Below are positions 41,503-46,765 of a stretch of 64,000 nt of DNA, one piece after another; within the stretch, counting starts at the first letter, position 1, and each line of letters opens with the position of its first letter. The notes under the pieces are model-generated. The model ran no database searches, was not told the DNA's origin, and was given only the letters and a program-made list of their open reading frames with translations. The DNA comes from Sulfurovum indicum. GTDB lineage: Bacteria > Campylobacterota > Campylobacteria > Campylobacterales > Sulfurovaceae. The position numbers and the translations under genes are program-made. The stretch covers positions 62,001-126,000 of the forward strand of contig NZ_CP063164.1 of NCBI RefSeq assembly GCF_014931715.1. Direction: 5' to 3'.

Positions 41503-42240
41503 CTATCCCTTTTTAATATCTCCCGAATAGGCAATGATCCCGGGTCTGAGGTTGCATACATGTTCAAATCCCAAAGCCTTCATAGCGTGCTGTACCTGGA
41601 AACTTCTGCTTCCAGTATGGCAGTAAACGATGACAGGGGAGTCTTTCTTATCATTGTGTTCTTCGATTTTTGCATAGAACTGTGAGGTTGGTACAAGAGA
41701 GTCTGTTCCTGCGATGTGCCCCATCTGGAATTCCATAAATTCACGTACATCTATCAGTGTAAAGTCAACCATACCCAGATTTCTGGCTTCAAGGAGTGCC
41801 TCAAGTTCATCTCCATCAAGCTGTTCTTCTTTCAGCAGCATCCGGGCTTGCTCTTTGGTAAGGCCTTTTGAGTGCTGGTGTACGACCTCTTCTATCTCAT
41901 CATGTTGTGCCTGTGCTGCAGCATATTCGGGAGTACAGAATATTCCGCAGTGGCACAGCCCGTCTTCCGGGATCTCCTTTTCAAGAGCCGGTTTACACGG
42001 ACAGATACGGTTATCAGCACTCTTTTGCTCCTCTTTGGTTTCTCCAATGACCATGAAACAGGGACAGAATCTTTTACCGTAAATAAGCTTGTTGCGTGCA
42101 AGCCCCATGGCGACACCTTCGTTGACCTCTTCATTGGGGTTCTGTACGAACCCGAACTGCTTGTTGACCTTTTGTACAAAATTCCATGTTTTTTCCAGTT
42201 CTGCCTGGAATTCATCAGAATGCATATCTATCTGCTGCAT
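41503..42240 (-). CDS. Ferredoxin-thioredoxin reductase-like/rhodanese fusion
   Basis: Cytoplasmic redox protein of 245 residues with two joined domains. The N-terminal part carries the FTR catalytic-chain pattern of three Cys pairs: FCPC (59-61), ICPC (80-82) and LCHC (96-98) plus Cys102, expected to hold a 4Fe-4S cluster and a redox disulfide. The C-terminal rhodanese domain has DVREFMEFQMGHIAG and the catalytic Cys207 loop YCHTGSRS. The fusion suggests coupling of sulfane-sulfur handling with Fe-S based thiol reduction. Function beyond the domains is inferred. Alone on the minus strand, followed by a lipoprotein gene upstream. Confidence 0.9.
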   Translation of the reverse strand: MQQIDMHSDEFQAELEKTWNFVQKVNKQFGFVQNPNEEVNEGVAMGLARNKLIYGKRFCPCFMVIGETKEEQKSADNRICPCKPALEKEIPEDGLCHCGIFCTPEYAAAQAQHDEIEEVVHQHSKGLTKEQARMLLKEEQLDGDELEALLEARNLGMVDFTLIDVREFMEFQMGHIAGTDSLVPTSQFYAKIEEHNDKKDSPVIVYCHTGSRSFQVQHAMKALGFEHVCNLRPGIIAYSGDIKKG

Positions 42241-42249
42241 GATAGTCCT

Positions 42250-42735
42250 TTAATAGGTTGTTTTGTTAAGCTCCTGTGCAATAGTATCAAATTCTTTTGC
42301 AAACTCTGCCATTCTCTCAGCCCAGTGCTCCAAAAAATTTTTGGTTTTGTTCAGATCGATATGAATATGTGTTTCATTGACTTCTATACCGGCCTCTTTC
42401 TCTTCAACTACCCCTCGGTGTATATCAGCAGTCAGCCTGTCTGTTTTTTCTTTCACTGTTTTGGCAAATTGTTCCAAGTAGCTTTTTGTCTTGTCGGTAT
42501 CGATAATGATCTTTCCGTCAGGAGTGGTGATAATACCGATATTTGCAAGTTTCCCCTGCTGTTGTATTTCAAGCTCTCTCTTACGTTTGGCTTCTGCTTC
42601 TGCTTGGAGCTCTCTGAGCAGCTCTTCTCTTGCCTGTTGTGCCACTTTTTTATCATGTTCAGCCTGGTCTTTTTGTTTTTCCTGGCATCCTGTGAGCGCT
42701 GCAAGAACAATAAGAGATATAAGTATTTGTTTCAT
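42250..42735 (-). CDS. Lipoprotein of unknown function
   Basis: Predicted lipoprotein of 161 residues with lipobox LAALTGC. The following 45 residues are a highly charged helix (likely coiled coil, QQAREELLRELQAEAEAKRK). The rest has two similar segments, IIIDTDKTKSYLEQFAKTV and IHIDLNKTKNFLEHWAERM, an internal duplication of about 55 residues apart. No family recognised. It is 9 bp upstream of the FTR-rhodanese gene and likely cotranscribed. Confidence 0.82.
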   Translation of the reverse strand: MKQILISLIVLAALTGCQEKQKDQAEHDKKVAQQAREELLRELQAEAEAKRKRELEIQQQGKLANIGIITTPDGKIIIDTDKTKSYLEQFAKTVKEKTDRLTADIHRGVVEEKEAGIEVNETHIHIDLNKTKNFLEHWAERMAEFAKEFDTIAQELNKTTY

Positions 42736-42823: not shown

Positions 42824-43189
42824 TTAGTTGGAACCGCATTTGCCTTTGCCGCATTTACCGCTTTTTTTCATATCTTCCATCTTTTTACTTTCCATTGTCC
42901 CGGCACCGGATTTGCCGGCTTGGCATTTTTGTCCTTTGGGAGATACTTTGTTTGCACCGCATTTACCAGCCTGACACTTCATCTCTTTGGGGACACCTTT
43001 CCCTTCACCGCATTTGCCTGCTTGACATTTCATCTTTTTGGGAGATACTTTGTTTGCACCACATTTACCGGTTTGACACTTCATCTCTTTGGGTGCTTCT
43101 TTCCCTGATCCGCAGGTAGCGTTAGCTGCAGTAAGTGTAAAGGCGGCGGCACCCGCGATGATAAGTCCAAGTTGTAGCAATTTTTTCAT
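42824..43189 (-). CDS. Exported Cys-rich GKCG-repeat peptide (HvfA-like)
   Basis: Exported low-complexity protein of 121 residues. Signal peptide about 1-24 (ending LTAANATC). The mature part is repeated Lys/Cys/Gly units: MKCQTGKCGANK, MKCQAGKCGEGK, MKCQAGKCGANK, QKCQAGKSGAG and a final GKCGKGKCGSN. This resembles HvfA/bufferin-type metallophore peptides, whose EGKCG motifs are modified by MNIO (DUF692) enzymes and which occur with a DoxX protein. DoxX is indeed 17 bp upstream here, but no MNIO gene is in the window. Start 43189 has an AAGGA site; a longer frame to 43267 overlaps doxX. Confidence 0.85.
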   Translation of the reverse strand: MKKLLQLGLIIAGAAAFTLTAANATCGSGKEAPKEMKCQTGKCGANKVSPKKMKCQAGKCGEGKGVPKEMKCQAGKCGANKVSPKGQKCQAGKSGAGTMESKKMEDMKKSGKCGKGKCGSN

Positions 43190-43205
43190 GATTTTTCCTT
43201 TTTTA

Positions 43206-43643
43206 TTATTGTTCATCCCCAAACAGCAGGTGGTCGAGACTGAATTTTCCGGCTCCAAACGAAGCAAATATAGTTAAGAACAACATATAGTAAAGCGGTA
43301 TCTCAAAACCGTTGTTACCAGCACTGAATCCGTGTGGAAGGTGTACCGTGATGATCGCTACTGTCATAACAACGATCAAGGGAAGTGAGATAAGACGCGT
43401 AAAGAGTCCCAATGTCAAAAGAACTACACCTGTTATTTCAGTTGTTGCAGCCATATAGGCATTAAGTGTCGGGAACGGAATGCCTATAGAGCCAAACCAT
43501 GTTGCTACTGCACTGATGTCAGACCACTTCTGCATAGCCGGTTCATAGAAACCGTATGCGATAGCCAGACGGGCAAACAGCAAGGAGAGACTCTGTCCAT
43601 GACTTAACAGATCTTTTGTAAATGGGTAGATATGTTTTAACAT
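43206..43643 (-). CDS. DoxX-family membrane protein
   Basis: Inner-membrane protein of 145 residues with four hydrophobic segments, typical of DoxX/DoxD-like proteins. Blocks: LLFARLAIAYGFYEPAMQKW, WFGSIGIPFPTLNAYMAATTEI, GVVLLTLGLFTRLISLPLI and HGFSAGNNGFEIPLYY. In hvf-type clusters a DoxX protein (HvfD) accompanies the Cys-rich peptide, and these two genes are adjacent here in one orientation. Role: probable redox or metal-stress function in the membrane. Confidence 0.9.
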   Translation of the reverse strand: MLKHIYPFTKDLLSHGQSLSLLFARLAIAYGFYEPAMQKWSDISAVATWFGSIGIPFPTLNAYMAATTEITGVVLLTLGLFTRLISLPLIVVMTVAIITVHLPHGFSAGNNGFEIPLYYMLFLTIFASFGAGKFSLDHLLFGDEQ

Positions 43644-43823
43644 GGGAACTCCTTTTTAGATTTTTTATATGCCGTATCACAATGATTTGATACAGTGAAA
43701 GTATAGGGTAACTGTTGTGTAATGCGTGTGTAAATGTTTAAGATCGGAGTGTTGGTATATGTATGCTGTCAGCAGGCAGAACATGATTGGTGTATGGAGG
43801 AAGAGGAAAGGGAATTTGTATAA
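43644..43823. other. doxX upstream region
   Basis: No gene. Contains the doxX promoter area with a GTATCA-N8-TGATAC palindrome (43674-43693), then MITE copy 3 begins. Confidence 0.6.
43674..43693. promoter_or_regulatory. Palindrome upstream of doxX
   Basis: GTATCA-CAATGATT-TGATAC, a 6+6 perfect inverted repeat 31 bp before the doxX start. Form and place fit a repressor operator; the cognate regulator is not known. Confidence 0.4.
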
Positions 43824-44088
43824 GGGCACCTCTAATAACCCCATACGCCCATAATGGGTTTTGCAGATGTGAGATTTTGCAAGAGGCTTTCAAGTCCTAG
43901 CCAAAGCTAAGACGATGGAAGCCTCTTGTGAAAGATCGCGTCTGCAAAGCCCACCCTTTGGGCAATGCCGGCTTTGCCCTATGCGGCGTTACACTTTTTC
44001 GACTTAGCTACGGCTAGGTCTGTAAAGTGTGCCTTGCCTAGAACAAAGCCGGCAATGTTATGAGCATATGGGGTTATTAGAGGTGCCC
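43824..44088 (-). mobile_element. MITE-like element, copy 3 (265 bp, inverted)
   Basis: Third copy, opposite orientation to copies 1 and 2, with target duplication ATAA (43820-43823 and 44089-44092). Here hairpin B is better paired: the arm reads AAGAGGCTTCC where copies 1 and 2 read AAGATGCTTCC. It lies between the 3' end of the small Cys-rich lipoprotein gene and the doxX promoter region. Confidence 0.92.
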
Positions 44089-44210
44089 ATAAGATCAAAT
44101 ATTTCCGGATGAATAGTGATCAACGGAATAAGAAAAGAGTATGCTGTGTTACGAATAACGATGCGCAACACAGGAAGCCGGGTAAAGAGGGAGTGTGAAG
44201 CAAATAAATA

Positions 44211-44408
44211 CTATTTACCGCATTTTTCGCCGCTTTGGCATTTTGCATCTGTCTGTTTTTCTCCAGCGCATTTTTTAGCTTTTGCCTGGTCACTCTGGCA
44301 CTTGCCTGACTGGCACTTCTGTTCTGCATCAGCATTTTCGCTTGTTGTACACCCTGTAAACATGATCAATGCCAATCCTATTAATGAACCGAAAAGTAAC
44401 TTTTTCAT
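44211..44408 (-). CDS. Small Cys-rich lipoprotein
   Basis: Lipoprotein of 65 residues. Lipobox IMFTGC, then a short Lys/Cys/Gln-rich mature part with KCQSGKCQSD, KKCAGEKQ and KCQSGEKCGK. It resembles the GKCG-repeat peptide at 42824-43189 in composition but is anchored by lipid and lacks true repeats. Start 44408 has an AAGGAG site; the frame to 44507 is spurious. Metal or thiol binding is plausible from the Cys content only. Confidence 0.8.
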   Translation of the reverse strand: MKKLLFGSLIGLALIMFTGCTTSENADAEQKCQSGKCQSDQAKAKKCAGEKQTDAKCQSGEKCGK

Positions 44409-44573
44409 TTTATTCTCCTTATATGAAGTTGTTTTTATCTGACAGATAGCAGTATAATATGTTGTGTGTGCAAGTTGTGTGCAGCAATTTGCACTGAGAG
44501 TACACATAAAAGTGTTACGATACCGTAAACCATGGATAATTTACACAAAGAAGCACAAAAGAAAGATACGAAA

Positions 44574-45074
44574 ATGAAAAGAAGAGATTTTTTAATTATA
44601 GGTTCAGCATTAGGGTTGTCTCCCTATCTTAAAGCAGAGGTTGATACCGGATTTGAAAAAGAGTTCAAAGAGGTAGAAAAGACCATTGCTGCGGTACAGG
44701 AGCATATGTTTCCCGAAGGCAGCAAGCTTCCCTCTGCCAAAAAGATGAACACTATCTCCTTTCTGTTCCAGACGATCAGTCATCCAACGTATGACAAGGA
44801 TATCAGAACCTTTGTGATCGAAGGGGCCGGAGAGCTTATGCATAGGGAGAAGGGTAAATTCATTCATTACAGTGAGGAGAGAAAGGAGAGTGCTTTGAGA
44901 GAGTATGAAAAGACAAACTACGGCAGAAACTGGCTCTCCCGCATTATGACCCTGACCATGGAAGCGATCTTCAGCGACCCTGTATATGGCAGCAATATCA
45001 AAGAGGAGGGCTGGAAAAGCGTGCAGAGTTTTGGTGGACTTCCCAGACCCGAAACGAGGTACATTAGGCTATGA
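44574..45074 (+). CDS. Gluconate 2-dehydrogenase subunit 3-like protein
   Basis: Small subunit (about 166 residues) of a GMC dehydrogenase complex. The N terminus MKRRDFLIIGSALGLSPYL is a Tat-type signal (RRDFL), so the complex is probably exported folded. The remainder (AAVQEHMFPEG, LSRIMTLTMEAIFSDPVYG, GWKSVQSFGGLPRPE) fits the subunit-3 family that guides the catalytic subunit. Its stop overlaps the GMC gene start (ATGA at 45071). A longer frame starts at 44532; the RR signal favours 44574. Confidence 0.85.
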   Translation: MKRRDFLIIGSALGLSPYLKAEVDTGFEKEFKEVEKTIAAVQEHMFPEGSKLPSAKKMNTISFLFQTISHPTYDKDIRTFVIEGAGELMHREKGKFIHYSEERKESALREYEKTNYGRNWLSRIMTLTMEAIFSDPVYGSNIKEEGWKSVQSFGGLPRPETRYIRL

Positions 45075-46765
45075 GCAAAGATGAATTTGATGTTGTGGTC
45101 ATCGGGTCGGGTGCCAGTGGAGGAGCAGTAGCCTATACATTGTGCAAAGCCGGATACAAAGTAGCAGTTCTGGAGAAAGGACGGCTTATCCGGCGTGATG
45201 AGTTTTCCAAAGATGAGCTGGCATACTGCAGACGTGATATCGTCACTCCCAATCTTTTTGAAGAGTATCATGTCATAGAAGAGAAGGTGAACGGAAAATG
45301 GGAAGCGACCCCAACATATGATTCAGGGTGGAGCTTCTGGAACGGGAACATTGTCGGGGGCTCATCAAATTTCATGAGCGGTATGCTGCACCGTCTTCAT
45401 CCTGATGATTTCCGGCTTAAAAGCAAGTATGGAGAGATAGAGGGAGCCAATGTGGTCGACTGGCCCATCAGCTATGAGGAGCTTGAGCCCTATTATACTT
45501 TGGCAGAGGAGATTGTCGGAATATCAGGATATTATGAGCCGCATCCTTATGAACCGCCAAGAAGTACCCCCGGTTTTACGCAGCCCCCTACAAGAGAGAA
45601 TGCTGTAGTCACACTGCTGGATAAAAGCTGTAAAGCACTGGGTATCAGGTCTCTGGTGACTCCAAGGGCAGTTCTCTCTCGGGACAAAGGCCATCGGAAG
45701 GCTTGCTACTACTCCAATTTCTGTGGAAGTTACGGATGCAGTTCCGGTGCCAAAGGAAGCTCCAGGGAAGCCCTCCTCAAACCGGCGCTGGCAACAGGAA
45801 ACCTGACACTGATGACCAATACCCATGTTAAATATCTGCATACAGAGCAGAAAGATCGTGTCAACAGTGCTGTAGCAATTGACACTGTTACAGGAAAAGA
45901 GAAAAAGATCTATGCCAGACTCTTCGTTGTAGCGGCACAGGCACATGAGAGCGCCAGACTGCTGCTGAATTCGGCAAACAAGTATCATCCGGAGGGTCTT
46001 GCCAACAGCAGTGGGGAGCTGGGGAAGAATCTCATCTTCTCAGGAGGCGGTTCCGGACAGGGGGAGCTGCATGAAAATGAACTGAAAGAGATCTCTTTTG
46101 GCGAACTGATGCAGACAGGATACTTTGTCAACCGCTCCATCCTTGACTGGTACTTTGTTGATGACTGGTGGCATGGCAAGTTCAAGGGCGGTTCGGTAGA
46201 GTTTATGTTTGAACATCAGAACATCATCTCAAGGGCAAGAAAGAACAACTATGAAGAGGGCAGACTGGTTTGGGGTAAAGCACTTGGAGAGAGGGTGGTT
46301 GATCGCTTTACCAAACAGAAAAGTATCCGTTTCGAGATCTTTAACGACTGGCTGCCAAATGACAACTGTTTTGTCTCACTGGACCCAACACACAAGGATA
46401 AATACGGTATGCCTGTAGGAAAACTGCGTATCGGTGCACATCCGCAGGATATCAAAGTAGGAAAATATATTGCCAAAAAATGTGAGGCAGTTCTTGAAGA
46501 GATGGGAGCAAAGAATATCTACTCTTCCATCTCTGCCGATCCGGCACAAAATCTTGTTGCAGGGGGGTGCCGTTTCGGTAATGATCCTAAAACATCGGTC
46601 CTTAACAAATACTGTCAGGCACATGATGTTCCAAATCTCTTTGTGGCCGATGCAAGTTTTATGCCAACAGGTGGTTCGGTTGCCTATACCTGGACAATAT
46701 ATGCCAATGCATTCCGGGTGGCCGACCATATTGCCAAGATACTGAAAAAAGGTATGCCGGGTTAA
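45071..46765 (+). CDS. GMC-family FAD-dependent oxidoreductase
   Basis: Catalytic flavoprotein of 564 residues, oxidising an alcohol or sugar. The FAD-binding motif VVIGSGASGGAVAYTLCKAGYKV is at the N terminus, with NIVGGSSNFMSGM, the KGSSREALLKPAL region and the C-terminal GMC block FVADASFMPTGGSVAYTWTIYAN. It lacks its own signal and likely travels with the Tat-signalled small subunit encoded before it. A cytochrome subunit, often third in such complexes, is not present here. Substrate unknown. Confidence 0.92.
   Translation: MSKDEFDVVVIGSGASGGAVAYTLCKAGYKVAVLEKGRLIRRDEFSKDELAYCRRDIVTPNLFEEYHVIEEKVNGKWEATPTYDSGWSFWNGNIVGGSSNFMSGMLHRLHPDDFRLKSKYGEIEGANVVDWPISYEELEPYYTLAEEIVGISGYYEPHPYEPPRSTPGFTQPPTRENAVVTLLDKSCKALGIRSLVTPRAVLSRDKGHRKACYYSNFCGSYGCSSGAKGSSREALLKPALATGNLTLMTNTHVKYLHTEQKDRVNSAVAIDTVTGKEKKIYARLFVVAAQAHESARLLLNSANKYHPEGLANSSGELGKNLIFSGGGSGQGELHENELKEISFGELMQTGYFVNRSILDWYFVDDWWHGKFKGGSVEFMFEHQNIISRARKNNYEEGRLVWGKALGERVVDRFTKQKSIRFEIFNDWLPNDNCFVSLDPTHKDKYGMPVGKLRIGAHPQDIKVGKYIAKKCEAVLEEMGAKNIYSSISADPAQNLVAGGCRFGNDPKTSVLNKYCQAHDVPNLFVADASFMPTGGSVAYTWTIYANAFRVADHIAKILKKGMPG

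Follow-up and report, generated by a model that had tools for sequence, protein, structure and literature searches.

Described systems and the Sulfurovum locus

Cys-repeat peptides of the HvfA kind are normally processed by an iron enzyme, after which they bind copper. Many copper-peptide clusters also have a DoxX protein (HvfX), whose role is to our knowledge not known and which is uncharacterised even in Haemophilus. The closest described systems are the hvfABCX oxazolin operon of nontypeable Haemophilus influenzae and the EGKCG captophorins (PMC13419390, PMC12668002). We compared with them a stretch of 64,000 nucleotides of Sulfurovum indicum (contig NZ_CP063164.1, positions 62,001 to 126,000), hereafter the window. 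As in the oxazolin and captophorin systems, the window encodes a Sec-exported Cys-repeat precursor with C-x4-C pairs in a KCxxGKCG context and an adjoining DoxX protein of the HvfX family. Unlike them, its genome has neither the MNIO (HvfB) nor the partner protein (HvfC), its peptide carries the motif MKCQAGKCG in place of EGKCGEGKCG and stays below the cut-off of the HvfA equivalog model (NF050188, 20.7 bits for a cut-off of 95), and its locus has instead a GMC oxidoreductase pair and a Cys-rich lipoprotein. Our preferred reading, to which we give a probability of about 0.5, is that the locus is related to the HvfA/HvfX copper-peptide system but independent of MNIO: the peptide would be a periplasmic thiol or metal ligand, and HvfX and the GMC pair would be redox partners. 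The features of the locus are the following (positions in the window):

41503..42240, minus strand: FtrB-like (FeThRed_B) - rhodanese fusion (Pfam FeThRed_B 129 bits, rhodanese 58.6 bits)
42250..42735, minus strand: lipoprotein of 161 aa, conserved beside the peptide in Sulfurovum-type loci
42824..43189, minus strand: exported Cys-repeat peptide, HvfA-like, 121 aa with 10 Cys, ATG at 43189
42887..43090, minus strand: four consecutive KCQxGKCG units of 17 residues each, KSG replacing KCG in the last
43206..43643, minus strand: HvfX-family DoxX membrane protein, 145 aa (NF050144, Pfam DoxX)
44211..44408, minus strand: small lipoprotein of 65 aa, rich in Cys and bearing the motifs KCQSGKCQ and KCAGEK
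44532-46765, plus strand: Gluconate_2-dh3/GMC oxidoreductase pair, divergent from peptide and HvfX and part of the conserved neighbourhood
44532..45074, plus strand: Gluconate_2-dh3-family small subunit (PF13618, 34.7 bits against 23.4), with a twin-arginine sequence MKRRDFLIIG and a likely start at 44577
45071..46765, plus strand: GMC oxidoreductase, 564 aa, with a FAD motif and three [3Fe-4S]-type Cys (212, 218, 223)

The peptide and HvfX genes

The two genes lie 16 bp apart on the minus strand, with the DoxX gene first (upstream). The peptide has a Sec-type signal (MKKLLQLGLIIAGAAAFTLTAANA, ending AANA, as judged by eye) and the 17-residue repeat units KEMKCQTGKCGANKVSP, KKMKCQAGKCGEGKGVP, KEMKCQAGKCGANKVSP and KGQKCQAGKSGAGTMES. 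At a lag of 17 residues we counted 38 identities, whereas 2000 shuffled sequences averaged 10 and reached at most 21, and a 51-nt spacing in the DNA of the gene matches this period. Repeats of 17 residues have also been described for EGKCG-type precursors (PMC12452194). The peptide narrowly passed the NCBIfam model of the HvfA-family repeat domain (NF050137, 21.0 bits for a cut-off of 19.5), so that signal, period and domain together bear out the exported KCQxGKCG repeat peptide of the original prediction. Among 21 Sulfurovum-type homologues the Cys columns are kept and the remainder varies, including the number of repeats; six Cys columns, the C-terminal GKCGxGKCG pair among them, are retained in at least three quarters of these peptides.

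The DoxX protein clearly passed the model of the HvfX family (NF050144, 124.3 bits for a cut-off of 80), which was matched by all nine members of A1, and scored 69.8 bits against Pfam DoxX. Its predicted model is all-helical (pLDDT 83.5), and a structure search with this model returned no match with E < 0.001, the best being TMEM35A/NACHO (TM 0.56, E 0.67). HvfX sequences are well conserved among homologues, and the closest named relatives of the window protein are from Sulfurovum and Sulfurimonas. With the passes of NF050137 and NF050144, the likeness to the hvf peptide and its DoxX neighbour that had been predicted holds, but the name HvfD given to the latter does not, the DoxX protein of the hvf operon being named HvfX (PMC13419390).

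A second HvfX gene is present in the same genome, without a Cys peptide (L125:6465-10361, about C1:1001.5-1005.4 kb; C1:1002489). It is followed by genes for a protein with a Glu_synthase domain (PF01645) and one with an HSP20 domain, and a metallo-beta-lactamase-fold protein is encoded divergently. HvfX - Glu_synthase pairs are recurrent in many relatives. The Glu_synthase-like (gltS) gene was considered as the missing partner and rejected: it adjoins HvfX in many loci, but often without a Cys peptide, which is also the case at this second HvfX gene. We also noted a contig labelled Marinilabiliales (Bacteroidota) that encodes a Cys peptide, an MNIO, a 254-aa protein and HvfX in this order (L288:7001-7423); this HvfX is 61% identical to that of the window, which points to transfer or a binning error.

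Absence of MNIO and its partner

Profile searches of the whole genome, a single contig of 2.21 Mb with an estimated completeness of 99.98%, gave zero matches for MNIO (PF05114) and zero for the DUF2063 partner (PF09836). The original prediction had described both as missing at the locus, which is confirmed, and had left two possibilities, that they are encoded elsewhere or that the peptide works unmodified, in a variant system. The first is ruled out by their absence from the whole single-contig genome, and an hvfB/hvfC pair elsewhere in the genome, which had been named as evidence against the prediction, was looked for and not found. Among 397 genomes of Campylobacteria, HvfX was over its cut-off in 59 and MNIO in 25; by reading the HvfX and MNIO genome tables against each other we obtained 43 genomes with HvfX and without MNIO, so that HvfX carriers of the class more often lack MNIO than have it. 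The absence of MNIO is not a local loss and recurs across Campylobacteria. The possibility of a variant system gains support, because several families of the class share the arrangement without MNIO.

At one place related genera differ in this respect. In the genus coded g14 and in G240, a CGAGKCG peptide lies beside a CusBA-type RND operon in a genome without MNIO (L217-L221), and the same RND place in related genera, in the genomes G323, G341 and G358, holds peptide, MNIO and DUF2063 partner (L155, L156, L161). As read from these loci, the difference between g14 and the related genera is a gain or loss of the MNIO/partner pair at one locus.

In a published survey, 67 of 2583 genomes with EGKCG-type precursors had no MNIO, and such peptides were supposed to need no modification or to be no longer functional (PMC12452194). 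For the window peptide, functioning unmodified appears plausible. The alternative, that peptide and HvfX are a functionless, drifting leftover of a lost MNIO cluster with the GMC gene as a neighbour by inherited gene order, is in our judgement unlikely. It would account for the Cys lost from the fourth repeat (KSG), for the highly variable length and repeat number of the peptides and for the RND locus at which related genera differ solely in the presence of MNIO and partner, and it agrees with the second supposition of the survey's authors; but open frames, signal peptides and Cys columns are retained in many species, the association survives changes of order and strand, and HvfX is well conserved.

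Conserved neighbourhood

The interval 42824-43643 of the original prediction does cover two genes, the peptide and HvfX, but misses the Cys lipoprotein and the conserved Gluconate_2-dh3/GMC pair. Most Sulfurovum-type loci, that of the window included, have the order Cys lipoprotein, HvfX, peptide, lipoprotein, FtrB-rhodanese; the Cys lipoprotein is upstream of HvfX in most of them, and the FtrB-rhodanese fusion (ferredoxin-thioredoxin reductase catalytic chain) is conserved at the end. In the window, a MITE-like palindromic element of 277 bp (43816-44092), which has hairpins inside and whose inverted ends of 34 bp are 91% complementary, sits between HvfX and the upstream Cys lipoprotein gene. 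The genome contains 23 near-full copies of this element with 98-100% identity, and in several sister loci the distance between HvfX and the Cys lipoprotein gene is 24-60 bp. A promoter scan gave sites no more numerous than in shuffles.

We mapped the surroundings of HvfX and MNIO genes in 80 regions, plus 60 further regions mostly around GMC genes. MNIO loci have the order Cys peptide, MNIO, DUF2063 partner, usually then HvfX, and most MNIO-less peptide-HvfX loci contain a GMC gene, mostly with a Gluconate_2-dh3 small subunit. Cys peptide, HvfX, Gluconate_2-dh3 and GMC are co-directional in families f2, f3, f6 and f7, and the GMC pair is divergent from peptide and HvfX in f1 (with the genus of the window) and f10; the neighbours persist though gene order and strand vary between families. 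The MNIO-containing Campylobacteria loci L135-L148 come from the same class and have the same HvfX family and CGAGKCG-rich peptides, but their peptides are more regular (CGAGKCGG repeats) and there is no GMC pair at the locus.

Among the mapped HvfX genes, 27 had peptide and GMC nearby, 10 had MNIO and none had MNIO together with GMC. The second set comprised 80 named loci from another collection, 76 of them with an HvfX call, and is not fully independent, since it shares L261, L265, L275, L284 and L293 with the first (G186, G210, G203, G367, G139). Its 76 loci divided into peptide and GMC (33), peptide alone (21), peptide and MNIO (4), GMC only (4) and neither (14), and MNIO and GMC were never together. 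At the level of genomes, GMC was present in 41 of the 43 MNIO-less HvfX genomes vs 4 of 16 with MNIO (Fisher p about 1e-7, a value inflated by relatedness); tree correction on the HvfX tree left 5 supported independent pairs, which is too few (median p 0.125). Four genomes without HvfX over cut-off (G027, G044, G209, G251) retain the peptide beside GMC. The coupling is not obligatory, as lone GMCs of the same clade and several peptide-HvfX pairs without nearby GMC occur. Among the papers searched, none combined DoxX with GMC oxidoreductase and copper, DoxX with Gluconate_2-dh3, Sulfurovum with DoxX, or MNIO with Campylobacterota.

The GMC oxidoreductase pair

The closest solved relatives of the GMC protein are the large subunits of FAD glucose dehydrogenase and fructose dehydrogenase. 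Judged by alignment, it would share with BcGDH (6a2u) and FDH (7w2j) the FAD motif and the three iron-sulfur Cys, and these enzymes and the window pair both have a small subunit of the Tat-signal hitchhiker type. The [3Fe-4S] Cys of BcGDH align with Cys 212, 218 and 223, which are kept in 72 of 72 peptide- or HvfX-linked members. The pair differs from BcGDH and FDH in that no heme c subunit gene adjoins GMC, the next gene encoding a MORN-repeat protein, and in that His476 and Asn519, the catalytic pair of BcGDH (PMC6719666), are replaced by Leu495 and Ala538. All 72 linked GMCs have Leu at the first position (72/72) and Pro or Ala at the second (72/72), and the surrounding motifs are NLxAGG(C/A)RFG and SFMPTGGSV(P/A)YTW. 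With both the His and the Asn lost, an ordinary sugar dehydrogenase is unlikely. Stand-alone GMCs of the same clade share these motifs, so the change of the catalytic pair is not tied to peptide linkage.

The RR of the small subunit is kept in nearly all homologues, and these twin-arginine starts indicate that the GMC/small-subunit pair is probably periplasmic, like the peptide. A structure search with the small-subunit model (pLDDT 86.4) was without match, and a sequence search of solved structures with this subunit gave nothing.

A tree of 81 GMC proteins comprised a clade of 14, one outlier and 66 others, the latter including the window protein. We take the clade of 14 to be probably of the C. 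jejuni Cj0415 kind. Pairs of the Cj0414/Cj0415 type are called gluconate dehydrogenase and, like that of the window, consist of a Gluconate_2-dh3 and a GMC gene; they differ in their separate GMC clade on a long branch and in having His- and Asn-bearing motifs. We consider it unlikely that the window pair is an ordinary metabolic enzyme of the gluconate-dehydrogenase type and the peptide an unrelated metal buffer encoded nearby by chance. The occurrence of the pair without peptide in many genomes and the name of the Cj0414/Cj0415-type pairs would suit this, but none of the 14 proteins of the C. jejuni-like clade is near a Cys peptide vs 33 of 66 in the clade of the window (Fisher p 0.0002), the His/Asn pair is missing, and, in a control of our Cys-peptide caller, calls were rare away from the anchor genes (2 of 894 genes, vs 69 of 794 within three genes of an anchor). 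A C. jejuni-type gluconate dehydrogenase as the function of the window GMC was rejected, being unsupported by tree and active site.

The conserved GMC pair could be a redox or a modifying partner of the peptide. In the second case, GMC and Gluconate_2-dh3 would replace MNIO and DUF2063, oxidising or otherwise maturing the exported peptide in the periplasm, and HvfX would provide the membrane component. We hold this to be possible, if on the doubtful side. At the locus GMC never occurs with MNIO, the two are complementary across HvfX genomes, and GMC is retained beside the peptide even without HvfX; the replacement of the sugar-dehydrogenase catalytic pair by invariant motifs makes another substrate likely. 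Against this, these motifs are also present in GMCs that stand alone, with no peptide close by, MNIO modifies its precursor before export whereas the GMC pair would act outside, and we know of no GMC enzyme that modifies Cys residues.

Link to metals

The genome of the window also encodes a CusB/CzcB-like adaptor with EMKCEAGKCG directly after its signal peptide (L080:5766-6878, about C1:922.8-923.9 kb). The gene of this KCEAGKCG-bearing adaptor belongs to an operon of the tolC-cusB-cusA type. In relatives, GKCG peptides lie beside RND pumps of the CusA/CzcA family (L217, L252), and in L092 a GKCG Cys-rich lipoprotein is encoded 14 bp after a CopA-type ATPase. A metal role of the peptide system is thereby suggested indirectly, by neighbours and motif.

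The thiol peptide and HvfX (DoxX) might serve persulfide or thiosulfate chemistry and not metals, a reading that we find improbable. The hosts, mostly Sulfurovum and Sulfurimonas, speak for it, as does the FtrB-rhodanese gene that comes next in Sulfurovum-type loci; but this gene is confined to loci of that type, and it is metal-efflux genes that the motif and the related peptides adjoin.

Proposed mechanism

For the MNIO-independent relative of the copper-peptide system that we prefer, we propose the following course. The peptide would act in the periplasm, where its cysteines, present as thiols in paired C-x4-C sites, would bind Cu(I) or a different thiophilic metal. At the inner membrane, HvfX may work alongside the peptide. 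The GMC pair, presumably Tat-exported, would be a redox partner of peptide and HvfX and not a sugar dehydrogenase, with electrons passing from FAD to the iron-sulfur cluster of GMC and on to a membrane acceptor.

Implications

In MNIO-less genomes, names assigned automatically, for instance 'oxazolone/thioamide-modified RiPP metallophore' or 'RiPP maturation protein', would be misleading. If GMC and Gluconate_2-dh3 did replace the MNIO pair, there would be a second route to metal-handling peptides that does without MNIO. The GMC pair, which accompanies MNIO at none of the mapped loci, is a concrete and testable candidate partner of the peptide. A clade with HvfX and peptide but no MNIO separates what is needed for modification from what is needed for the job of the peptide, and is a natural test of whether GKCG cysteines work as plain thiols.
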